DNA of 64,000 nucleotides from Thioalkalivibrio nitratireducens DSM 14787. GTDB taxonomy: Bacteria; Pseudomonadota; Gammaproteobacteria; Ectothiorhodospirales; Ectothiorhodospiraceae. The DNA lies in NCBI RefSeq assembly GCF_000321415.2, contig NC_019902.2, positions 1,054,001-1,118,000 of the forward strand. The letters are read 5' to 3'. Positions within the stretch are counted from its first letter, which is position 1. Every line of letters begins with the position of its first letter. Shown piece by piece: positions 3,915 to 21,037 of this stretch. A program made the position numbers and the translations under genes. The notes under the pieces are model-generated. The model was not told the DNA's origin, ran no database searches, and saw only the letters and a program-made list of their open reading frames with translations.

Positions 3915-6900
3915 ATGGGTGACCGGTCCAAAGAATTTTCCAAGTCGCGCCGGCATTTCCTGCAGCTTGCAGGTGCGGCAGGATTTGGCGCCGTCGCAAC
4001 ACCTGGGGCTGTGCTGGCGCAGTTCCGGTATTTGGCGCCGACACGCGTCGAAAATCCACTTGCTCATTATCCGGACAGGAACTGGGAACACATCTATCGC
4101 GATATCTACCGCAGTGACGGCTCTTTTGTTTTTACCTGTGCGCCGAACGACACGCACAATTGTCTGCTTCGCGCCTTTTACAAGAACAAGGTACTGACAC
4201 GAATCGAGCCCACCTACGGTTATCACAAGGCGACCGATCTGGAGGGGAACCAAGCATCTGCGCGGTGGGATCCCCGCTGCTGCCAAAAGGGGCTCGTACT
4301 TACGCGGCGTCTGTATGGCGACCGTCGCGTCAAGGGAGCCTTCCTGCGCAAGGGGTTCAAGGACTGGGTGGACGAGGGCTTCCCGCGGGATGCGACGACC
4401 GGTATGCCTCCGAAGCACTTCCTCAATCGCGGCTGGGATTCATGGGTCAAGGTGTCGCACGAGGAGGCCGCCGATTATCACGCGCGGACGTTGCGGAGTA
4501 TCGCCGAAACCTATTCCGGCGAGCAGGGGCGGCGCCACCTGGAAGCCCAGGGTTACCACCCCTCGATGATCGATGCGATGGACGGGGCCGGCACGCGCAC
4601 GATGAAAGTGCGGGGAGGCATGGCCAAGCTGGGTGCGGCGCGCCTGCTTGGCACTTTCCGCATGGGCAACAGCCTGGCCCTGCTCGATCACCATGTCCGC
4701 GGCGTGGGACCGGATGAGGCCAAGGGCGCCGGCGCCTGGGATTCATATTCGTTCCACACCGATCTGCCGCCCGGCCACACCATGGTCTGCGGAGATCAAA
4801 CCAACGACTTTGAGTTCCACGACGCCGACAACGCCGAGATGATCGTCGTCTGGGGCATGAACTGGATCTGCACCAAAATGCCCGACAGCCACTGGCTCAC
4901 GGAGGCACGGCTCAAGGGGGCGAAGACCGTGGCGGTCACGGTGGAGTACTCGGCCACGGCCAACAAGTGCGACGAGGTTCTGGTCATCCGCCCGGGCACC
5001 GATCCCGCCCTCGCCCTGGGCATGGCCGGCGTCATCATTCGGGAGGGCATCTACGACAAGGATTTTGTTCGTCGCTACACCGACCTGCCGGCACTCGTGC
5101 GCATGGACACACTGGAAGGTCTGAAGGCACGGGACGTTTTTCCCGGCCACGTGGAACGTCAGCTGGACAACTGGACCCACGTGCTGGGTGCCGGGGAGGA
5201 GGAGCCACCGGTGCATCAGCAGAACGGCCGCTATATCCCCCATGCGCTGAAAGGTGAGTTCTCCGATTTCGTGGTCTGGGACAAGGCCACGGGAGAGCCG
5301 GTCGCCGTTGGTACGGATCAGCTCGGCGACCACTTCGACAAGCTGGGAATCGATCCGGCGCTGGAGGGGAGCTTCCGTGTCCGAACCGTCGATGGCAAGA
5401 CGGTCGAGGTGCGCCCGGTGTTCGATCTTACCCGGCAGTACATCGACGACAACCTGACTCCGGAGCAGGTGGAGGCGATCACCTGGGCGCCGCGGGGATC
5501 CGTGGAAAGCGTCGCGCGGGATATCGCCAAACATGCCGGAAAGACGCTGGTTCCCTGCGGCATGGGTCCGAACCAGTTCTGGAACAACGACAACAAGGAC
5601 CGCGCGATCTTCCTGTTGGTGGCACTCACCGGTAACGTCGGCCGGCATGGTGGCAACATCGGCAGTTACGCCGGCAACTACCGGGTCAGCCTGTTCTCCG
5701 GCGCCGGGCTCTGGACGGGAGAAGATCCCTTCAACGTCCAGATCGATCCCGAGGGGCCGGTTTCCCGGAGAAGCACCCTGCGCTACGAATCGCTGCACTA
5801 CTGGGCAAACGGCGAGCGCATCATGATGGCCGGCGACAAAGTGATTACCACGGGTAATCATGTCCCGACCCCTACCAAGGCCATCTGGCAAACGAACTCC
5901 AACTCCAGTCTGGGCAACCAGAAGGGCCATTACGATGTTGTGAACAACACCCTTCCCAAGTGCGAGCTGGTCGTTTACAACGACTGGTGGTGGACGGCGT
6001 CGTGTGAATACAGCGATATCGTCTACGGGGTGGACTCCTGGATGGAGTTCAAGCATCCGGACATGACGGCGTCCAACACCAATCCTTTTCTGCAAATCTT
6101 CCCGGCAACCCCGCTGCGACGCACCTACGGAACGGTGCACGATCTGGAAACCTATCTACTGGTGAGCCGCGCTCTGAGCGATCTGACCGGAGACCGGCGC
6201 TTCGTGGACCTGTGGCGGTTCGTCGAGGAGAACCGGGTCGACGTCTATCTGCAGCGCATCCTCGATCACTCCGCCAACCTCCGCGGTTACCAGTTCCACC
6301 ATCTCAACGGGCTGGCACGGGCCGGCATCCCGGCGCTGGTGAACAATCGTACTTACCCGCGGGTGTTCAGCTACGAACAGGTCGCCGAGTCCAAACCCTG
6401 GTACACGAAAACGGGGCGGCTGGAATTCTACCGGCCCGAGCCCGAGTTCATCGAGGCGGGCGAGAACCTGGCGGTCTACCGGGAACCTTCGGAAGCCACC
6501 TTCCACGAGCCCTGCGCGATCCTGGCCAAGGAGCACCCGGCGATTCGGCCCAAGCGGCCGGCGGACTGGGGCATCCCGGCCGACGACCGCAGCCACCAGA
6601 ACCGGCAGATGCGCAACACGACGATGGACGGGGCCTCGCTGCTGGCATCGAAGCATCCGCTGATCGAAGCGGGCTACCGCTACGTGTTCCACACGCCGAA
6701 ATACCGGCACGGCGCGCACACCACTCCGATCGACACCGATTACATGATGATGCTGTTCGGACCGTTCGGGGACATCTACCGCCGTGACAAGCGCATGCCC
6801 GGCACCAGTGAAATGTACGTTGACATCAATCCCTCCGATGCGAAGGAGCTCGGTATTGCCGACGGCGATTACGTCTGGATCGACGGAGATCCGGAAGAGC

Positions 6901-7418
6901 TCCCTTTCCGCGGCTGGCAGCAAGAGGGCCGGGAGGACGCGTACAAGGTCGCGCGACTGATGGCCCGGGCCCGCTACTACCCGGGGACGCCCCCAGGCAT
7001 CACCCGCATGTGGTTCAACGGATACATGGCGACGCCCGGCTCCGTGCAAGGGCACGAGGGCCGTGAGGACGGCATCGCCAAGAGCCCGGAGACCAACTAC
7101 CAGGCCATGTTCCGCTATGGCGGCCACCAGAGCCTTACCCGGTCATGGCTCAAGCCTACGCACCAAACCAACAGCCTCGTGTGGCGCAGGCTCTTCAGCC
7201 ACGTGCAGGGGCAAGGTTTCGCCGCGGACGTGCACTGTGTCACCGGTGCCCCGCGCGAGTCCATGGCCAAGTTCACCAAGGCGGAACCGGGCGGCATCGG
7301 CGGCGAAGGGCTTTGGCGGCCGGTGAGCCTCGGGCTTCGACCCGCGGCCGAGAGCGAGGCGCTGCAACGATATCTCAAGGGCGCCTACGTCCTTGCATCC
7401 GACAAAGAACAGTCCTGA
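3915..7418 (+). CDS. NXR/Nar-like molybdopterin oxidoreductase, catalytic alpha subunit
   Basis: 1167 residues, type II DMSO-reductase family. The N-terminus has a Tat motif SRRHFLQ (11-17) followed by a hydrophobic stretch to about AVLAQ, so the folded subunit should be exported to the periplasm. The FS0 cluster motif is C75-x3-D79-x3-C83 with C122; Asp occupies a position that is Cys in NarG. The wording CAPNDTHNC, RWDPRCCQKGL, HTDLPPGH and VVWGMNW is, from memory, very close to NxrA of Nitrospira and anammox bacteria. The length also fits the periplasmic NXR clade (about 1150) better than selenate, chlorate or dimethylsulfide enzymes (about 910). A strong ribosome site AGGAGGAGG (3898-3906) sits 8 bases before the ATG. 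It could oxidise nitrite, reduce nitrate or act on another oxyanion; sequence alone does not decide the direction. Confidence 0.88.
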   Translation: MGDRSKEFSKSRRHFLQLAGAAGFGAVATPGAVLAQFRYLAPTRVENPLAHYPDRNWEHIYRDIYRSDGSFVFTCAPNDTHNCLLRAFYKNKVLTRIEPTYGYHKATDLEGNQASARWDPRCCQKGLVLTRRLYGDRRVKGAFLRKGFKDWVDEGFPRDATTGMPPKHFLNRGWDSWVKVSHEEAADYHARTLRSIAETYSGEQGRRHLEAQGYHPSMIDAMDGAGTRTMKVRGGMAKLGAARLLGTFRMGNSLALLDHHVRGVGPDEAKGAGAWDSYSFHTDLPPGHTMVCGDQTNDFEFHDADNAEMIVVWGMNWICTKMPDSHWLTEARLKGAKTVAVTVEYSATANKCDEVLVIRPGTDPALALGMAGVIIREGIYDKDFVRRYTDLPALVRMDTLEGLKARDVFPGHVERQLDNWTHVLGAGEEEPPVHQQNGRYIPHALKGEFSDFVVWDKATGEPVAVGTDQLGDHFDKLGIDPALEGSFRVRTVDGKTVEVRPVFDLTRQYIDDNLTPEQVEAITWAPRGSVESVARDIAKHAGKTLVPCGMGPNQFWNNDNKDRAIFLLVALTGNVGRHGGNIGSYAGNYRVSLFSGAGLWTGEDPFNVQIDPEGPVSRRSTLRYESLHYWANGERIMMAGDKVITTGNHVPTPTKAIWQTNSNSSLGNQKGHYDVVNNTLPKCELVVYNDWWWTASCEYSDIVYGVDSWMEFKHPDMTASNTNPFLQIFPATPLRRTYGTVHDLETYLLVSRALSDLTGDRRFVDLWRFVEENRVDVYLQRILDHSANLRGYQFHHLNGLARAGIPALVNNRTYPRVFSYEQVAESKPWYTKTGRLEFYRPEPEFIEAGENLAVYREPSEATFHEPCAILAKEHPAIRPKRPADWGIPADDRSHQNRQMRNTTMDGASLLASKHPLIEAGYRYVFHTPKYRHGAHTTPIDTDYMMMLFGPFGDIYRRDKRMPGTSEMYVDINPSDAKELGIADGDYVWIDGDPEELPFRGWQQEGREDAYKVARLMARARYYPGTPPGITRMWFNGYMATPGSVQGHEGREDGIAKSPETNYQAMFRYGGHQSLTRSWLKPTHQTNSLVWRRLFSHVQGQGFAADVHCVTGAPRESMAKFTKAEPGGIGGEGLWRPVSLGLRPAAESEALQRYLKGAYVLASDKEQS

Positions 7419-7430
7419 GGAGGTTTTGCT

Positions 7431-8558
7431 ATGCCGAGCGTTTACAACTGGCAGCTGGGGCGGACGATGGAGTACCCCTTCGAAGGCGTGCGGCCCAAGC
7501 GGCAGTTTGCGATGATTCTCGATACCAACAAGTGCATCGCCTGCCAGACTTGCACCGTCGCGTGCAAGACCGCCTGGACCGCCGGCCGCGGGCAGGAATA
7601 CATGCTCTGGAACAACGTCGAAACCAAGCCCTACGGGTACTACCCCCTGGGCTGGGACGTCAATATCCTCGACCGCCACGGTGTGCAGGACGTCAACGAG
7701 GCCGTGTACAAGGGCAAGACCCTGTTCGAGGCAGCGCCGGACGGCGAGATCGTGCTGGGGTATCGACCCAAGGATGAGGACTACGCCTACCCGAACATCG
7801 GCGAGGACGACTGCACCGGTGAGATGGGGCAGGGCGCCTGGATGCAGATGCCGCACATGCAGTGGATGTACTATCTGCCCCGAATCTGCAACCACTGCAC
7901 CTATCCCGCGTGTCTCTCGGCCTGCCCGCGGCAGGTCATCTACAAGCGCGAGGAGGATGGGATCGTGCTCCTCGATCAGGAGCGCTGCCGCGGCTACCGC
8001 GAATGCGTGACTGCCTGCCCGTACAAGAAGGTGTTCTTCAACCCGATGACCCGGGTTTCGGAGAAGTGCATTGGCTGTTACCCGGCGATCGAGAACAATC
8101 GGCAAACCCAGTGCACCATCACCTGTATCGGCAAGATCCGGCTCCAGGGCTTCATCACCACGCCGGACGAGGCGCGCGAAGACAACCCGCTGGACTACAT
8201 CATCCACTTCGCCAAGGTTGCCAAGCCGCTGTATCCGCAGTTCGGGCTCGAGCCGAACACCTATTACATTCCGCCGGTGCACGTCCCCCCGCGCTACCTG
8301 CGGCAGATGTTCGGCTGGGGCGTGGAACAGGCCATCGAGACCTATCGCCGCGCCTACGAGGACCCCAAACTGCTCGGAGCGATGCTGCTGTTCGGTGCCA
8401 CCTCGGCGATCATCCATCGCTTCAAGCTGGAGGGCGGCAAAGTAATCGGCTACGACGACAAGGGCGCCGAGCTGGTGCGCGTTCCGATGGTCGAGCCCAC
8501 GTATGTGCGGGATGCCTACGACGCGCGCTTCGACACCTATCGCACCAACGTGACCTGA
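7431..8558 (+). CDS. NXR/Nar-like iron-sulfur beta subunit
   Basis: 375 residues that should carry four Fe-S clusters and pass electrons between the alpha subunit and the heme-b gamma subunit. Cysteine groups are CIACQTCTVAC (near 37), CNHCTYPACLSACP, CRGYRECVTACP and CIGCYP with a later CTITC. In the third group Tyr replaces one Cys, as Trp does in NarH, which predicts a [3Fe-4S] cluster. The N-terminus MPSVYNWQLGRTMEY and the WNNVETKPYG segment match NxrB of Nitrospira as I remember it. There is no signal peptide, as expected for a partner carried out with the Tat-exported alpha subunit. It starts 12 bases after alpha with its own AGGAGG site, so the genes form an operon. Confidence 0.9.
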   Translation: MPSVYNWQLGRTMEYPFEGVRPKRQFAMILDTNKCIACQTCTVACKTAWTAGRGQEYMLWNNVETKPYGYYPLGWDVNILDRHGVQDVNEAVYKGKTLFEAAPDGEIVLGYRPKDEDYAYPNIGEDDCTGEMGQGAWMQMPHMQWMYYLPRICNHCTYPACLSACPRQVIYKREEDGIVLLDQERCRGYRECVTACPYKKVFFNPMTRVSEKCIGCYPAIENNRQTQCTITCIGKIRLQGFITTPDEAREDNPLDYIIHFAKVAKPLYPQFGLEPNTYYIPPVHVPPRYLRQMFGWGVEQAIETYRRAYEDPKLLGAMLLFGATSAIIHRFKLEGGKVIGYDDKGAELVRVPMVEPTYVRDAYDARFDTYRTNVT

Positions 8559-8572
8559 CAGGAGGCATGCTC

Positions 8573-10207
8573 ATGTGGCAGAAAACATTGGCTTCCGGCG
8601 CGGTGGCGCTGACTGCGGCGCTGATCGTCACCACGGCGATGGCCGCCGACATGATTCGGGCCGTTCCCGTCGATGCCGACGGGCCGCTGAAGGATCCCGA
8701 TGCGGCGTTCTGGGAGGGCATCGAGTCGGTGCGGGTGCCTCTGCAGCCACAGATGGTGGTCCCGCCACGGCACCTGCAGCCGGCGGTGACCGAAATCTCC
8801 GCGCGAGCGGCACACAACGGTCAGTGGATCGGTGTGCTGATCGAATGGCCGAGCGCCGGTCCGAGGGACACCATCGTCTCGGATACTTTCGGTGACCAAG
8901 TGGCTGTCCAGTTCCCCGTGCAGGGCGAGGTGCAAAGCAGCCCTATGATGGGTCACGCGGGTGCCCAGGTGAACATTCTTCAATGGCGGGCCGCATTGCA
9001 GCGGGATCTCGCCAAGGGTGAACCGGACATACGCGATCTCTACCCTTACGCTTTGGTCGATGTCTACCCCGACGAGGTGCTGAGGCTCACCGACGCCCGC
9101 GCGTATACGGGTGCGCTCGGGCTGGACAACCCGGTCGCCAGGCCGTTCGAGAGCCCGGTTCTGGATCAGATGGCGGAAGGCTGGGGCACGCTGACGGTTC
9201 GGCCACTGCAGATGGCGGATGGCTGGGGTGTGTGGGAAGACGGAACCTGGCGCGTGGCCATTACCCGACCCATGCGGTATCTGAGCCCGGGGGATCCCGA
9301 TCGGTTGACGCCAGGAAATACCAGCCGAGTGGCCTTCGCCGTGTGGGATGGCAACAACAACGAGGTGGGCGCCCGCAAGAGCTGGTCGAACTGGACTCCG
9401 TTGCGGATCGAGGAATGGCCCATGAGCATCGAACCGAACGCCGTGATGGACGAAAAGGTCGGGGATATTCTGACCCGAGCCCACCGTTTCCAAACGCTCG
9501 CCGCCCTGTTTTCCTACCCGGATTCCGGCGGGTACGAGGCTTTGTGCCGATCCCTCGAGTCGCTGGGCAGAGCGGGCCGCGGTGTACGCGGAGCGGCCGA
9601 GCGCGATGCCATCGACGCGGTGGCGACAGCCTGGCGGCAGGCCGACGCTGCTCTGCTGCAGGCGGAGTACGGACGCCTGTTCCTTGGCCGGACTCCGTGT
9701 TCGCTGCATTCGGCGGCGTACAGCGGGGCGGGTAGCCTGGCGGGTCCGGCGGCCGAGATTGCCGACATCAGCGGCTTCTACCAGGCTTTCGGCGTCGATA
9801 TCCGGGATGACCAGCCGGAGCGTCCCGACCACCTCGCCGCCGAACTGGAATTCTACGGCACCTTGCTCATCAAGCTTGCCTACGCCCAGCTCAGCGACTG
9901 GGTGGAAGCGTCCGACGTCACCGCAGCGGCGGCGCGCAGCTTTCTTTCAGACCATCTTGGCCGCTGGTCCGGTGTGCTAAGCGAGCGGCTGCAGCGGAAC
10001 GACGCAGCCGCTCCGTTCCGCACGCTGGCCGCATGGCTGGACAGACTGCTCGATGACGAGTGTCAGCGTTTCGGTGTCAAAGCCGAACCCTTCGGCGAGC
10101 CGATCACCGATAGCGAGAGCGCCGACTCGATGATCTGTCCGCACGACGGGGCCGCTGTCCCCACGGGGCAGGCCCAGCCAGTGCATTTTCATCGCGCGCG
10201 GCATTGA
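8573..10207 (+). CDS. heme-b gamma subunit fused in frame to TorD-type chaperone
   Basis: One open frame of 544 residues. Residues 1-25 form a Sec-type signal peptide (ALIVTTAMA|AD). Residues about 26-282 are an ethylbenzene-dehydrogenase/SerC-like heme-b gamma subunit that ends in the usual way (FAVWDGNNNEVGARKSWSNW). From about 284 the frame continues into a TorD/DmsD chaperone (EYGRLFLGRTP, SAAYSGAG, FYQAFGV, PDHLAAELEFYGTLL). An internal ATG at 9422 has GAGG 8 bases upstream, so the chaperone may also be made alone. In the +1 frame this ATG overlaps a TGA (ATGA), the usual layout of coupled separate genes. The fusion may therefore be recent, or a one-base sequence error. The start at 8573 is preferred because AGGAGG (8560-8565) is 7 bases upstream. 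Confidence 0.8.
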   Translation: MWQKTLASGAVALTAALIVTTAMAADMIRAVPVDADGPLKDPDAAFWEGIESVRVPLQPQMVVPPRHLQPAVTEISARAAHNGQWIGVLIEWPSAGPRDTIVSDTFGDQVAVQFPVQGEVQSSPMMGHAGAQVNILQWRAALQRDLAKGEPDIRDLYPYALVDVYPDEVLRLTDARAYTGALGLDNPVARPFESPVLDQMAEGWGTLTVRPLQMADGWGVWEDGTWRVAITRPMRYLSPGDPDRLTPGNTSRVAFAVWDGNNNEVGARKSWSNWTPLRIEEWPMSIEPNAVMDEKVGDILTRAHRFQTLAALFSYPDSGGYEALCRSLESLGRAGRGVRGAAERDAIDAVATAWRQADAALLQAEYGRLFLGRTPCSLHSAAYSGAGSLAGPAAEIADISGFYQAFGVDIRDDQPERPDHLAAELEFYGTLLIKLAYAQLSDWVEASDVTAAAARSFLSDHLGRWSGVLSERLQRNDAAAPFRTLAAWLDRLLDDECQRFGVKAEPFGEPITDSESADSMICPHDGAAVPTGQAQPVHFHRARH

Positions 10208-10249: not shown

Positions 10250-10838
10250 ACCCCTGCCCCAGGCAGTTGGCCTTGCCGACGCCTGCAGGCGAGCACCGTG
10301 CTGCTCGCTAACCTGAACGCCCCCCGGTACCGGACGGCCATCACCGCAATCGCTAACTCGCTCGATCTCGGCCATGCCCACGCTCCCGCAAGTGGGTGAC
10401 CGACGGCACGGGTAGTTGGCGCCGACCAACCGCTCTCCACGTGGCCCTCTAGTGGGCGCTGCGGGAAACGACCTGGGCCCGCGCCCTGTGCTCGTCAGTG
10501 GCATCGGTCCCGACGTGAATGATCCGCCGGCTTGCTCTGATGCCGACCAGTCGGCTGAATGGTGCGCTACCCTTACAACCAAACCCGCCACCCTCGATCC
10601 TCCCACGGGAGCGAGGGGTGGCGGCGATGCCAGCGGGTGCCAGCCCGTAAGGCAAGCGGCCCGATTCCGGTGCCACGACGGCGCGATTTTCGGCGCAACA
10701 GCCGGCATCGCGCGGGTTACCGATGAGGTCGATGCCCGAGGCATGGGCCGTGGAGGGAATGCTGGCGCTGAAAAATCCGTCCGTATCCCTGGAGTGCCGC
10801 GCCAGATGGCTGTGTATAGCGTGCAGCGATGGACTGGC

Positions 10839-10852
10839 TTGATTCCGATCCA
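10839..10852 (+). promoter_or_regulatory. Fnr-type box before the crp/fnr gene
   Basis: TTGATTCCGATCCA matches the Fnr consensus TTGAT-N4-ATCAA at nine of ten defined positions and lies 52 bases before the regulator's start. This suggests autoregulation. The molybdoenzyme operon has a weaker copy at 3841. Confidence 0.5.
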
Positions 10853-10903
10853 GCCACAACGCGGTGTGGTCTTCAGCCGAAACAGGAATCACCGACGGGT
10901 TTT

Positions 10904-11653
10904 ATGACAATGGCGAGCCTTTCCAAAACCATAGTGTTCGAAGACAAGCCGCAGATCTTCGAGGGTCTCAGCGAGGAGAGCCTGGAAAGAATCATTGCGA
11001 ACTCGACCCTGCATGGCATCGATGCCGGTGTCATCCTGGTCCATCAAGGTGATGCACCGGCCAGCATCTACGTCACCGTCAGGGGTGCGCTGCGAACTTA
11101 CCGCAGCAACAGCAATGGCAACGAAGCGACCATTCGTATGCTGAAGCCTGGCGACAGCTGCATGGAGGCCGTCATGTTCATGGGCGGTCCGTCGCCTATC
11201 AATGTCGAGGCCGTCGAGAACTCTGTCGTGCTGATGATTCCGGAACGAGTCGTGAAGGCCCAGGTGCTCGATGACGCACAGTTCGCGACGAACCTGTTGA
11301 GAATCGTCGCGCGGCACTACAAGAACACCATGCATCAGGTCGATGGCATGAACATGAAAACCCCTTTGCAGCGTGTCGGATATTATTTCCTGCTGCGCCA
11401 TATCGAAGCAGGGCACGATACGTTGGATGTCGATCTTCCGTTCCAGAAAAAGCTGATTGCAAATTATCTCGGCATGACGCCGGAGACTTTTTCGCGTGTC
11501 CTGAAACAGATGCGGGAGTACGGAATCGACGTCGGAAGCAGCCGGATCCGGCTCCGTGACGCCTTCACGCTGTGCCATTTCTGCGATACCGACTCGGCAG
11601 CCTTGTGCCCACATGGGAGCGATGCGGTGTGCAGCAGATGCCCTCCGCATTGA
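10904..11653 (+). CDS. Crp/Fnr-family transcription regulator with C-terminal cysteine cluster
   Basis: About 249 residues. The N-terminal half is a cyclic-nucleotide-binding-type fold (IFEGLSEESLERI, VLVHQGDAPASIYVTVRGAL, MLKPGDSCMEAVMF). The C-terminal half is a Crp-type winged helix (LIANYLGMTPETFSRVLKQMREYGI). There is no N-terminal Fnr cysteine set. After the helix-turn-helix comes a tail with five cysteines, C-x2-C-x8-C-x7-C-x2-C, ending CSRCPPH; this could hold an Fe-S cluster or zinc. Its position beside the molybdoenzyme operon and the upstream Fnr-like box make it the likely local regulator. The start is MTMAS at 10904 or the ATG at 10910; the longer frame from 10829 has no family-like sequence. 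Confidence 0.82.
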   Translation: MTMASLSKTIVFEDKPQIFEGLSEESLERIIANSTLHGIDAGVILVHQGDAPASIYVTVRGALRTYRSNSNGNEATIRMLKPGDSCMEAVMFMGGPSPINVEAVENSVVLMIPERVVKAQVLDDAQFATNLLRIVARHYKNTMHQVDGMNMKTPLQRVGYYFLLRHIEAGHDTLDVDLPFQKKLIANYLGMTPETFSRVLKQMREYGIDVGSSRIRLRDAFTLCHFCDTDSAALCPHGSDAVCSRCPPH

Positions 11654-13068: not shown

Positions 13069-14309
13069 TCAGGTGGCGGTGAGATAGCCGTGCTTTTCCA
13101 GCATCTTCAGCCAGCGCGGCGCGTTGCGCTGCACGACGAGAGCCTCGTAATCGACGGTGCGGTCCTGGTAGGGGGTCGCATGATTGAGCATGGCGTAGAC
13201 GATGCGCAGGAGCTTGTGCGCCAGGGCCACGATGGAGCGCTTGTGTCCCTTGCGGATGGACAAGGCCGAAAACTTGTCCTTGAGCGCACAGCGGGTGCGG
13301 GAGGCGGCTTGCGCGAACTCGCACAGCAGGCGACGGACCCAGGCGTTGCCCTTGCGCGTGCGTCCGCTCTTGCGTTTACCGGCGCTCTCGTGGTTGCCGG
13401 GGCAGATGCCGACCCAGGAAGCCAGGCGTTCCGCGTTGCCGAAGCTCGCCATGTCGGTGCCGATTTCGACGAGCAGCATGGCGGCGCCAATGCGGTCGAT
13501 GCCGGGCACGGTTTCCAGCAGGCACACCTGCGGTTCCCAGGGGGCCAGACCCGCAAGCAGTTCCTGTTCGAAGCGGGCGATCATGGCCTCGAGGTACTCG
13601 ATGTGCGCCAGAACCTCGTTGAGCACGAAGCGGTGCCTGGTGCTCAGTTCCTCCGGTTGCAGGGCTTCGAACAGTTCTTCGCGGGAAGCCCGCAGGCGGC
13701 CGGCGAGGTCGAGGATCGCGTGCATGGGGGCATCGGCGAGCAGGGCCTTGATCATGGCCCGTGCCGACGCGCCGTGTACGTCGGAGACCAGCACGTTCAG
13801 GCGAATCCCGGCATCGGTCAGCACCTTGTGCAGCCGGTTCTTCTCCGCGGCCAGCATCCCGACCAGCTTCTGGCGCTGCCGGGCGATCAGGCGCAGATGG
13901 CGGATCTCGGCCGGAGGAATGAACGAAGCCCGCAGCAGACCGGCACGGGCCAGCGTGGCCAGCCACTGGGCATCGGAGAGGTCGGTCTTGCGGCCAGGCA
14001 CGTTTCGGGCGTGACGGGCATTGACCACCCAGGCCATGACGCCCACACGCTCAAGGGCCGCATAGGGGCTCTTCCAGTAGATCCCAGTGCTCTCCATCAC
14101 CACGACCTCGGGTCAAACCCGCGAACCCACTCGGCCAACGCCCGCCGATCGCGCTTGAAACCCCCGAATTCCCGGTGCTCCACCGCCACACTGCCATCGG
14201 GCTGCTCGATCAGCGCACAGGCCGTGATCTTGCTCTGGTGCACATCCAGACCGACAACGCGCCGGTGAATCGGGGTAATGTCCATGCTGACCTCCTCGGG
14301 CAAACGCAC
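13069..14309 (-). pseudogene. IS110-family transposase, frameshifted
   Basis: Two overlapping frames make one IS110/IS1111 transposase. The N-part (ATG 14282) has VGLDVHQSKITACALI, the DEDD nuclease start. The main part has VVMESTGIYWK, DLSDAQWLATLARAG and the C-terminal transposase_20 region (LLETVPGIDRIGA, FASWVG-like segment, ICPGNHESAGKRKSG). The frame breaks near 14100, where the N-part stops at DPRSW instead of continuing into the MESTGIYW region. The element has no obvious inverted repeats, as is usual for IS110. It sits inside the TTAGCGTG-bounded array that splits vapC; IS1111 relatives are known to target attC-like hairpins. Confidence 0.85.
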
Positions 14310-18049: not shown

Positions 18050-20060
18050 ATCGCGCCGAGCAAAGCTCGGCGTATCTTGCGGGGTGGAAGTCCCCGTCGG
18101 GTAAGGGTTAGCCACCCACCCGTATCGAGTCTTGGACCTGTGGCGGAGTAAAGGAGGACGAACAAGGCAGGTTAAGCGTAGACAGAGAATCCTGTAGGCC
18201 ACAGGGGTGATCGCGCACCCTGAAGTGCTGGTACAGCTTCGACAAGCTCAGTTCCGGGCGCCGAGGGTTTTAACGCACACCGAAGGCAACACAGAAGCAC
18301 CCGTCAAGGCGAGGGTGTGGAGGTCCGGCGGAGTCCACAGGTCGTGGCTGCGAGGCAAGAGATACGTCGTAGAACTCGGGAAGCCCCGATGGGCTCCTGG
18401 ACGGACTTGCCACCGACAGGGCATGCGGTTATTGAGGCACGCAAGGGGAAACCCGGAGACAGGGTTAGACCGAAGCCTAAAGCGGTGGGATGGGAGTCTG
18501 GACCAGGGAGGGCGCTGGAAGGCGTCCGTATGCGCTTGGGGTGTCTTATGGGGCATAGTAGTCGGCGGTCGGGAAAGCCGGCCACAGGGCGAAGGACCCC
18601 ACGGAAGTACGTAGCCCGCAAAGGAAACTCGATGCCGGACACAGACGGACTGGGAGTACACGAGCCAACCGCCCTGCGGGGAATAGCCATGCGGGCGCGC
18701 GCCCGTAAGGACCACCGTTTTCGGGATTTATACCGGGAACTGAACGCCGAACTCCTGCACGCATGCTGGCGCGATCTGAACAAGAACGCGGCCAGTGGTG
18801 TGGATCGGATGACGGCGCAGGTGTACGAGACAGGACCTCGACACCCGCATACAGGACCTGGTGGAACGCCTGAAGACGAAGCGCTACCGGACCAAGCTGG
18901 TCCGACGCTGTTACATCCCCAAGGAGAACGGCCAGGAACGGGCGCTGGGGATACCGGCTCTGGAAGACAAGCTGGTGCAGCTCGCCTGCGCCAAGCTGCT
19001 GACGGCCATTTACGAGCAGGATTTTCTGCCTGTGAGCTATGGTTATCGGCCGGGTCGGGACGCCAAGGAAGCGGTGGGAGACCTGGGGTTCAATCTGCAA
19101 TATGGCCGGTTCGGGCATGTCGTGGAAGCGGACATACAAGGCTTCTTTGATCATCTTGACCATGACTGGCTGCTGCGGATGCTGGCCCTGCGGATCGACG
19201 ACCGGGCCTTTCTGCACCTGATTCGCAAATGGCTGAAGGCGGGGATTCTGGATACGGACGGGCAGGTGTTGCACCCGGACGCCGGGACTCCGCAAGGCGG
19301 CATCGTTTCTCCGATTCTGGCCAACGTGTACCTGCACTATGCGCTGGATCTCTGGTTCGAGCGGGTGGTGCGGCCGCGTTGTCGCGGCCAGGCGCTGCTC
19401 ATCCGCTATGCGGATGATTACGTCTGCGCGTTCCAGTATCGCGAGGAAGCCGAGGGGTTCTACCGGGTTCTGCCCAAACGGCTGGCGAAGTTCGGCCTGG
19501 CCGTGGCACCGGAGAAGACCCGCATCCTGCGCTTCAGCCGATTTCATCCCGGGCTGCCTCGGCGGTTTGCGTTTCTCGGCTTCGAGCTGTACTGGAGTCG
19601 GGATCGCCGCGGCGACCTGCGGGTGATGAAGCGCACGGCGCGCAAGCGTCTGCAACGCGCCAAGCAGCGGATCAAGGAGTGGATCAAGGGCCATCGGCAC
19701 TTGCCGGGGCGCCGGTTCATCCGGGAGTTGAACCGGAGATTGGGGGGGGCACTACAACTACTATGGGCTGCGCAGCAACGAGCAGGCGTTGCACAGCTTC
19801 TACCAGTGGGCGATCGGCTGTGCCTTCAAGTGGCTGAATCGTCGCGGTGGCAAGCGGAGCAGCTTCACCTGGGCCCAGTTCAATCGGGCGCTGAAGCGGT
19901 TGGGTGTCGCCTTCCCCCGAACCACGGAGAGACAGCACGCGCATGTGGCCTTTACGTAAGGGAACGTCCGTCGCGAAAGCGAGTACGACCGAGGAACCGG
20001 ATGCGGGAAAACCGCACGTCCGGGACTGTGCCGGGGGCGCCGGGTAACCGGTGTTCCTAC
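18050..20060 (+). mobile_element. group II intron inserted behind an attC
   Basis: The segment starts right after the attC with a structured, non-coding 580-base 5' region (stems such as GCCGAGC-AAA-GCTCGGC and GGGGTGGAAGTCCCC). It then encodes a reverse transcriptase/maturase and ends in a domain V-like stem (GGAACCGGATGCGGG-AAAA, then CCGCACGTCC) and a domain VI-like stem (CGCCGG-GTAA-CCGGTG) finishing CCTAC at 20060. A second copy of this 3' end at 24450-24587 diverges just after the following GGCGGA, which fixes the 3' boundary. The 5' boundary is approximate. Group IIC-attC introns are known to use attC sites; the class here is not certain. Confidence 0.78.
18632..19959 (+). pseudogene. 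ltrA: group II intron reverse transcriptase/maturase, two frameshifts
   Basis: ATG at 18632 follows AAGGAA. The N-part FRDLYRELNAELLHACW...NAASGVDRM is in one frame to about 18830. The RT core is in the next frame: QERALGIPALEDKLVQ, SYGYRPGRDAKEAV, VEADIQGFFDHLDHDWLL, GTPQGGIVSPILANVYL and the catalytic LIRYADDY. A G8 run near 19741 shifts the frame again before the maturase tail (HYNYYGLRSNEQALHSFYQW ... HVAFT-stop). The two breaks leave no full-length protein unless they are sequence errors; the G8 run is a likely place for one. Confidence 0.88.
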
Positions 20061-20091
20061 GGCGGAGGCGCAATTGACCCACCCGAAATCA

Positions 20092-20103
20092 GGGGGGGGG
20101 GGG
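20092..20103 (+). repeat. G12 homopolymer upstream of the lactonase-like gene
   Basis: Twelve consecutive G between the intron 3' end and the start at 20117. It could change length by slippage and alter translation initiation, or be an assembly artefact. Confidence 0.5.
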
Positions 20104-20116
20104 CGAATAGGGAGAA

Positions 20117-21037
20117 ATGTCACGAATGACCGAGAAACATAGCCCTATTGGAGGACTGCACGTTTTTTCTACGGGTACCGGGAGCATCCACACGGAACAT
20201 CGATATGGAACCAGACTCCCGCAGATGTGGTGGGTCCTGTTCTCGCGCAACTGGGTCGAAGTGCCACTCAACGTCTTTGTGCTCGAGCATCCCAAAGGTT
20301 TGATTTTATTCGATGCCGGGCTGGATACAGCCGTGCTGACGAACCCGACGTATGTGGATAGCCGTATCGGGCGTTTTTTTATGCGCAGGTTGTTTCGGCT
20401 CAAGATGCGAGCAGAGGAGACGATAACAAACAAGCTTGCGGGTTTGGGGTTCGACGCCGCCGACGTCCGCAAGGTCGTCGTCTCGCACTTGCACTTTGAT
20501 CATGTCGGAGGCATTGCAGAGGTCCCGCAGGCAGATCTTCTTGTCAGTCGCAACGAGTGGGCTCAACTCTCCGGGCCTCACCCGGAGAGAGACTTCATCT
20601 TCGGGGAGCATGTGCAGCGTCCCGGCGCCCGGTGGCAGGTCGTGGATTTCGAGCACACTCATGATCCTCTCCTGGCACCGTTTGGAGGCTGTCATGACGT
20701 CATGAATGACGGTTCGCTGATCCTACTGCCGACGCCTGGGCACACGCCAGGGTCGATTTCCATGCTGGCAAGAATCAAGGGCAGAGCACCAGTGCTGCTG
20801 ATCGGTGACCTGGCGTACGAAGCGGAGTTGCTGATGAAGGATCAACTACCTGGTACGGGAAACAAGGCTCAACTTATTGACTCGTATGAAAAGGTACGTG
20901 ACCTCAAGCAGCATTTGCCGGAGCTCGTTATCTTGCCGTCGCATGACTTCGCGGCTCAGGAGTACTTGTCGTCCAGTCCCGCCCAACAAGGTGCTCCAGC
21001 CGACCGCTCAACCGCTGCGCGGTTCAGCGTCGGCTGA
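20117..21037 (+). CDS. metallo-beta-lactamase-fold hydrolase, AHL-lactonase-like (cassette)
   Basis: 306 residues. The zinc motif is VVVSHLHFDHVGGIAE (HxHxDH), followed by the downstream His in LPTPGHTPGSIS and the bridging Asp in LLIGDLAYEAE. N-terminal VPLNVFVLEHPKGLILFDAGLD resembles AiiA-type N-acyl-homoserine lactonases, so quorum-signal hydrolysis is a reasonable guess; other lactones or thioesters are possible. The last about 20 residues are encoded by the attC, as is common for cassette genes. The start is at 20117 or at 20126 (MTEKHS); the upstream GGGAG suits the second better. Confidence 0.78.
   Translation: MSRMTEKHSPIGGLHVFSTGTGSIHTEHRYGTRLPQMWWVLFSRNWVEVPLNVFVLEHPKGLILFDAGLDTAVLTNPTYVDSRIGRFFMRRLFRLKMRAEETITNKLAGLGFDAADVRKVVVSHLHFDHVGGIAEVPQADLLVSRNEWAQLSGPHPERDFIFGEHVQRPGARWQVVDFEHTHDPLLAPFGGCHDVMNDGSLILLPTPGHTPGSISMLARIKGRAPVLLIGDLAYEAELLMKDQLPGTGNKAQLIDSYEKVRDLKQHLPELVILPSHDFAAQEYLSSSPAQQGAPADRSTAARFSVG

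Follow-up and report, generated by a model that had tools for sequence, protein, structure and literature searches.

The window analysed here is a stretch of 64,000 nucleotides from the genome of Thioalkalivibrio nitratireducens DSM 14787 (NC_019902.2, positions 1,054,001 to 1,118,000; coordinates below are those of the window), in which genes for alpha, beta and gamma subunits and for a chaperone stand together in one operon, as in a periplasmic NXR-type set. The alpha (molybdopterin) subunit is NxrA-like and has 1167 residues (3915..7418, + strand), and it is followed by an NxrB-like beta Fe-S subunit of 375 residues (7431..8558, +; Fer4_11). The Shine-Dalgarno sequence AGGAGG of the gamma gene (8560..8565, +) then precedes a single frame of 544 codons (8573..10207, +), which runs from an ATG without an internal stop within an open frame of 794 codons from stop to stop. 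The first part of this frame (residues 1-281; 8573..9415, +) is a heme-b gamma subunit of the NxrC/EbdC-like kind and the last part (residues 284-544; 9422..10207, +), which has an ATG of its own, is a TorD/NarJ-type chaperone. Between the halves lie only Trp282 and Pro283 (TGG CCC; 9416..9421, +), where the nearest relatives have a gamma stop codon and spacer. The fused frame is confirmed as real in the sequence as given. Downstream of the chaperone half are a neighbouring Crp/Fnr-type regulator (10829..11653, +; PF00027 and PF13545, with FtrB models below cut-off), an IS110-family transposase (13069-14103, -) and a reverse transcriptase (RVT_1; 18861-20129, +).

The best solved relative of the alpha subunit is NxrA of Kuenenia stuttgartiensis nitrite oxidoreductase (7b04_B, 881 bits over residues 11-1159), and the next family is 4ydd (193 bits), which we take to be the perchlorate reductase PcrA. 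All four proteins score below the NCBIfam curated cut-offs for DMSO reductase type II families: alpha at 308.6 bits (TIGR03479, cut-off 984.75), beta at 259.3 bits (TIGR03478, cut-off 480.7), gamma at 109.6 bits over residues 33-278 (TIGR03477, cut-off 169.85) and the chaperone at 73.7 bits over residues 302-499 (TIGR03482, cut-off 152.3). By eye, the alpha N-terminus carries the twin-arginine stretch SRRHFLQLA, with TAT_signal (TIGR01409) at 13.6 bits against a cut-off of 16.7, and the protein contains the Mo-site pattern Y-4x-D-11x-QT. Judged by the full-length similarity of alpha to NxrA, which exceeds that to other type II enzymes, the operon is an NXR-type alpha-beta-gamma-chaperone operon of the type II DMSO reductase family. 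Because the closest structure of alpha, the motif and the gene set match NXR, its products are predicted to work like a periplasmic NXR-type enzyme, in the direction of either nitrite oxidation or nitrate reduction. The presence of such an enzyme in Thioalkalivibrio and Methylonatrum may bear on which sulfur oxidisers carry out periplasmic nitrite oxidation or nitrate reduction.

Several known systems resemble the operon. In 'Ca. Nitrotoga fabula' the NXR operon has the same gene set, with a Tat-type NxrA, NxrB, a Sec-type NxrC and a putative chaperone; in the passages that describe that operon the chaperone is a separate item, likened to the one here by description (PMC6050957). The Mo-site pattern reported for that organism also occurs, by eye, in the alpha subunit here, with QT at its end versus QM in Nitrotoga and QN in Nitrospira defluvii (PMC6050957). 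Nitrospina gracilis has an NxrC3 gene adjoining a TorD-like chaperone gene, a likeness to the present gamma and chaperone, whereas in the account given of them these are two genes and the gamma subunit has a predicted membrane helix (PMC3578206). The Kuenenia structure 7b04 is the best solved relative of gamma as well as of alpha; its C chain is a gamma subunit of 322 residues, and no chaperone part is named in the structure listing. Ethylbenzene dehydrogenase (EbdABC/EbdD; 2ivf) has a similar gamma fold and a similar type of chaperone, although the proteins here fall far below the equivalog cut-offs (NF042980, NF042981) and its alpha subunit scores only 131 bits to the present alpha, against 881 for NxrA. 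Part of NarX, the 'fused' nitrate reductase of Mycobacterium tuberculosis, is NarJ-like, while to our knowledge NarX is not a periplasmic heme-b gamma subunit. NarX joins Nar-type subunits in one chain, as here, and its function is described as unclear in the accounts consulted (PMC7759655, PMC7816997).

Domain content and predicted fold of the fused chain

Pfam recognises two domains in the one chain, EB_dh (PF09459) at residues 45-270 scoring 94.4 bits against a cut-off of 33.3, and Nitrate_red_del (PF02613) at residues 346-468, scoring 68.6 bits against 22.2, and the N-terminus of the gamma half is, by eye, a Sec-type signal peptide. This bears out the original prediction of a TorD-type chaperone and a gamma subunit with a Sec-type signal in the same frame. 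When aligned, the gamma subunits of Thioalkalivibrio strains ALJ3 and ARh2 cover residues 1-281 from end to end, and the chaperones of the same strains cover residues 284-544. Profile searches matched the gamma half to 7b04_C (NxrC, 1e-19) and 2ivf_C (EbdC, 2.9e-16), and the chaperone half to the reductase assembly protein 2o9x (2.5e-4). Within its own genome, the fused protein has a full-length match at this locus only, with one weak partial match elsewhere (E 0.0058).

The AlphaFold model, one half a beta-sandwich and the other helical, has a mean pLDDT of 64.5 and a pTM of 0.49 from an input alignment of 15 rows, only three of which cover the chaperone half. Confidence is low at residues 284-289, and falls below 50 at residues 371-416 and 507-544 of the chaperone half. 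Foldseek placed 7b04_C first (6.5e-16) and 2ivf_C second (8.5e-13), and its other matches at E <=0.001 are carbohydrate-binding modules. Weak matches to NarJ (8jzd, 9.9e-3) and TtrD, which were listed without aligned ranges, presumably belong to the helical half of the model. The gamma half is thus an EB_dh member by the Pfam cut-off with an agreeing fold, and the chaperone half is a TorD/NarJ member by the Pfam cut-off with a weak fold match.

Separate genes in relatives and the origin of the junction

A fused gamma-chaperone frame was found in none of 38 relatives, which comprise 18 loci from a genome scan, one locus in genome G411 and 19 loci from a phylum sample. The scan, a pattern-based search of a species-genome collection with an alignment of gamma and a reach of close relatives, gave 96 candidates, of which 18 loci were confirmed. 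At all 18, gamma has its own stop at or before the chaperone start and a chaperone match follows downstream, with alpha and beta upstream where the contig reaches. The gamma stop lies 0-28 residues beyond the end of the match, and the gamma end is therefore fixed in near relatives, though some distant ones depart from it. A search of the family, over 47 genomes, returned nine with a match, four of them full-length (this genome, G005, G020 and G411); G005 and G020 were already counted among the 18 scan loci, and G411 was added as unfused. In the phylum sample of 398 genomes, 20 had a homologue at E <=1e-20, one of them the present genome. At each of the other 19 loci, including those with open frames of 434-585 codons (G444, G434, G544, G461 and G453), the gamma stop comes 1-3 residues after the end of the model, and a chaperone lies downstream at 18 of the 19, with none in the 1.5 kb examined downstream in L195. 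No stretch of 150 nt common to the sets of relatives was found.

A survey of the class with the chaperone family matched 68 of 369 genomes, this one included. The longest open frames (G248, G155:C97, G207 twice, G395:C79, G098 and G157) and two shorter ones (G097 and G395:C157) were examined, a selection that takes in every place with an open frame of >366 codons. No gamma-chaperone fusion is among them, and the length of the long frames looks like out-of-frame overlap with neighbours. Six plasmid records matched, all below 60% identity and none covering 80% of the query. A conserved gamma-chaperone fusion family, with the fusion in more than one lineage, was not found among the 38 relatives. 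Separate genes in relatives, which the original prediction had both named as a test and taken as the ancestral layout, are what the survey returned, and since all 38 are unfused the fusion either arose in this lineage alone or reflects an error in base calling.

The four nearest relatives (T. thiocyanoxidans ARh2, Thioalkalivibrio ALJ3, Methylonatrum kenyense and G411) have the same gene order where it was read and a stop between gamma and chaperone in every case. Their beta subunits are 82-89% identical to the one here, their gamma subunits 64-72% and their chaperones 46-51%. The alpha and beta subunits are 88 and 89% identical to those of M. kenyense, compared with 79-82% for the congeners ALJ3 and ARh2, and the congener G011 has no match; horizontal transfer of the operon is possible on these similarities. 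Homologues of the operon occur in M. kenyense, two other Thioalkalivibrio, metagenome-assembled genomes (MAGs) of Rokubacteria, Methylomirabilota, Betaproteobacteria and Binatia, a Thiomargarita, and others.

The junction in this genome reads GAGGAA TGG CCC ATG. In the four nearest relatives gamma ends at the same aligned residue, straight after a conserved Glu-Glu (Gly-Glu in G411), and its stop lies 3-4 nt before the chaperone start. The corresponding letters are GAGGAA TAG CAG ATG in M. kenyense, where both genes share one frame with a single stop between them, and GGGGAA TGA TCC GTG in G411, where the chaperone GTG is likewise in the gamma frame behind a single stop. ALJ3 has GAGGAG TGA GCAC ATG, and ARh2 has GAGGAG TAA GCCC ATG with a 7-nt spacer (TAAGCCCATGAGC). 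A fusion common to this genome and Methylonatrum is ruled out by the TAG between the two genes of the latter.

Trees of beta, gamma and chaperone were built from ten taxa (this genome, Methylonatrum, G411, ALJ3 and ARh2, together with the further loci L062, L063, L066, L067 and L070). In these, the present genome pairs with Methylonatrum (ultrafast bootstrap 77, 97 and 94 for beta, gamma and chaperone, respectively), and the pair groups with G411 (98, 52 and 95, gamma reaching only 52). This grouping makes a 6-nt same-frame spacer the likely ancestor, and because the genes already share a frame in Methylonatrum and G411, a single base exchange in the stop codon would be enough for fusion. Conversion of the stop codon to the tryptophan codon TGG by one substitution on this branch, which the trees favour, is the simplest origin. 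A second route is kept open, the deletion of one base from a 7-nt spacer such as ARh2 has, whose letters the junction resembles more. The original prediction had instead proposed an ATGA overlap in the +1 frame as the path to fusion. The TGA of that frame is present at 9423, and 8 of the 18 relatives from the scan have stop and start overlapping as ATGA, but Methylonatrum, ALJ3 and ARh2 do not, and the start in G411 is GTG in the gamma frame. With stops 3-4 nt before the start in all four nearest relatives, and two of them already same-frame, the ATGA overlap was rejected as the immediate ancestor.

Proposed translation of the fused frame and competing explanations

A ribosome starting at 8573 would run through the signal peptide, the gamma subunit, Trp-Pro and the chaperone, giving one chain of 544 residues. 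The Sec-type signal, identified by eye, would send this chain towards the periplasm, where the chaperone half would at best be useless ballast and may be clipped off. In none of the 38 relatives does gamma carry such a tail of 263 residues, and we know of no work for a cytoplasmic Mo-enzyme chaperone outside the cytoplasm. The two halves have their places on different sides of the membrane. An ordinary chaperone would have to be translated separately, in agreement with the original prediction. Ancestral ribosomes that terminated gamma 3-4 nt short of the chaperone start could have re-initiated there; after loss of the stop, a free chaperone could come from direct initiation at 9422 only.

The internal start that had been proposed, an ATG with a ribosome site at 9422, is upheld by the sequence and by its conservation. 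The ATG (9422-9424) is in frame, and a Shine-Dalgarno-like GAGGA within codons of the gamma half (9410..9414, +) sits 7 nt 5' of it. The same GAGGA is present in Methylonatrum (also at 7 nt), ALJ3 and ARh2, and G411 has GGGGA. As a yardstick, 36 of 1510 in-frame internal ATGs in sampled open reading frames (ORFs) of this genome carry a similarly spaced 5-mer Shine-Dalgarno, a set in which some ORFs are spurious and ATG 9422 itself is probably included. The case does not rest on chance, since the chaperone genes of relatives start at the position aligned with this ATG. Predicted RNA folding around 9422 is close to that of shuffled sequence (z -0.43; -0.67, -1.05 and 1.19 for the same stretch in three relatives), gives no positive sign of openness, and neither helps nor hurts internal initiation. 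The working chaperone would be made separately, from ATG 9422, by means of a Shine-Dalgarno kept in the codons of the gamma half.

We lean towards the explanation that an NXR-type operon has had its gamma stop converted to TGG by one base change and gives both a fused chain and, from 9422, a separate chaperone. The cell most likely makes both products, and the loss of the stop was probably recent and near-neutral or mildly harmful, not an adaptation. The fuller description, of a dual-product gene in a sulfur-oxidising soda-lake bacterium that supplies a heme-b subunit, exported by Sec and carrying a chaperone as its tail, and also, from an internal start, the chaperone free in the cytoplasm, is put forward more tentatively, at slightly short of even chances.

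Relative rates bear on whether the chaperone half still works. With ALJ3 as outgroup, the chaperone has 17 private changes here versus 34 in Methylonatrum (chi-square 5.67) and 19 versus 28 in G411 (chi-square 1.72), and gamma has 16 versus 24 and 26 versus 27, respectively. The chaperone half is not accelerated and, if anything, has fewer changes than its sisters. Values of dN/dS against Methylonatrum are 0.20/1.42 for gamma and 0.45/1.62 for the chaperone, with dS near saturation. The chaperone appears to have been under selection for most of the branch, and a recent fusion would leave no trace in these rates.

Substitution errors are rare in finished genomes. A base-call or assembly error at 9416-9418, with a normal gamma stop and two genes in the cell, nevertheless has to be weighed, because a single base difference would suffice and all 38 relatives have the stop. 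Gamma and chaperone are without relaxation, as this explanation would have it, and such an error would likewise show up as a stop lost here and in none of the 38 relatives, one genome of the species having been compared. Against it, the tree favours substitution over indel and the sampled assembly is not rich in frameshifts. In a sample of 400 kb plus the window, compared with 1.6 Mb of G011, non-overlapping ORFs gave 6 frameshift-like splits and 51 intact cases here, as against 4 and 61 for G011 (reverse direction), fusion-like ORFs numbered 0 of 30 and 0 of 28, and a test of overlapping ORFs gave 17 splits with 183 intact and 14 with 179; both frameshift tests include spurious ORFs, and so small a sample is weak evidence that cannot clear one base. 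The assembly is not visibly in excess of errors. In our judgement an error is unlikely yet deserves a real share of the probability, because substitution errors are rare per site and stop losses on long branches need not be.

The stop loss could also be an early lesion in a decaying operon whose enzyme is no longer needed. A separate NarG is encoded in the genome and exceeds its cut-off (2253 bits), the transposase and the reverse transcriptase lie nearby, and the congener G011 lacks a match, all of which would suit decay. However, the frames of all four operon genes are open in other respects, rates are not raised, and alpha and beta keep their high identity to Methylonatrum, so we consider decay improbable. 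Still further down the scale, and very improbable, is an adaptive fusion in which a single working protein ties the supply of chaperone to that of gamma, or in which the chaperone half acts on the still nascent complex, ahead of its export. Both halves are conserved, a linker of two residues keeps them in frame, and fusions of Nar-type subunits exist in the form of NarX, as far as described (PMC7759655, PMC7816997). The fusion nonetheless occurs in one of the 39 operons examined, its halves belong on opposite membrane sides, and neither rates nor linker suggest selection for it; no sign that it is adaptive was seen.

The one-base fusion, if real, would be a snapshot of gene fusion between same-frame operon neighbours and a clean test of how a cell copes with an exported subunit and a cytoplasmic chaperone in one frame. 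If two products are indeed made, the locus would show in nature how internal initiation can rescue the loss of a stop codon, with proteins bound for opposite sides of the membrane. Two further observations concern MAGs. In an alphaproteobacterial MAG (L066, 6745-6759) gamma and chaperone share a frame, with one TAG and an ATG 9 nt after it. In a Rokubacteria MAG (L073, 710-1739) the beta subunit matches in two frames, over residues 1-258 and 294-375, a split that is likely a frameshift.
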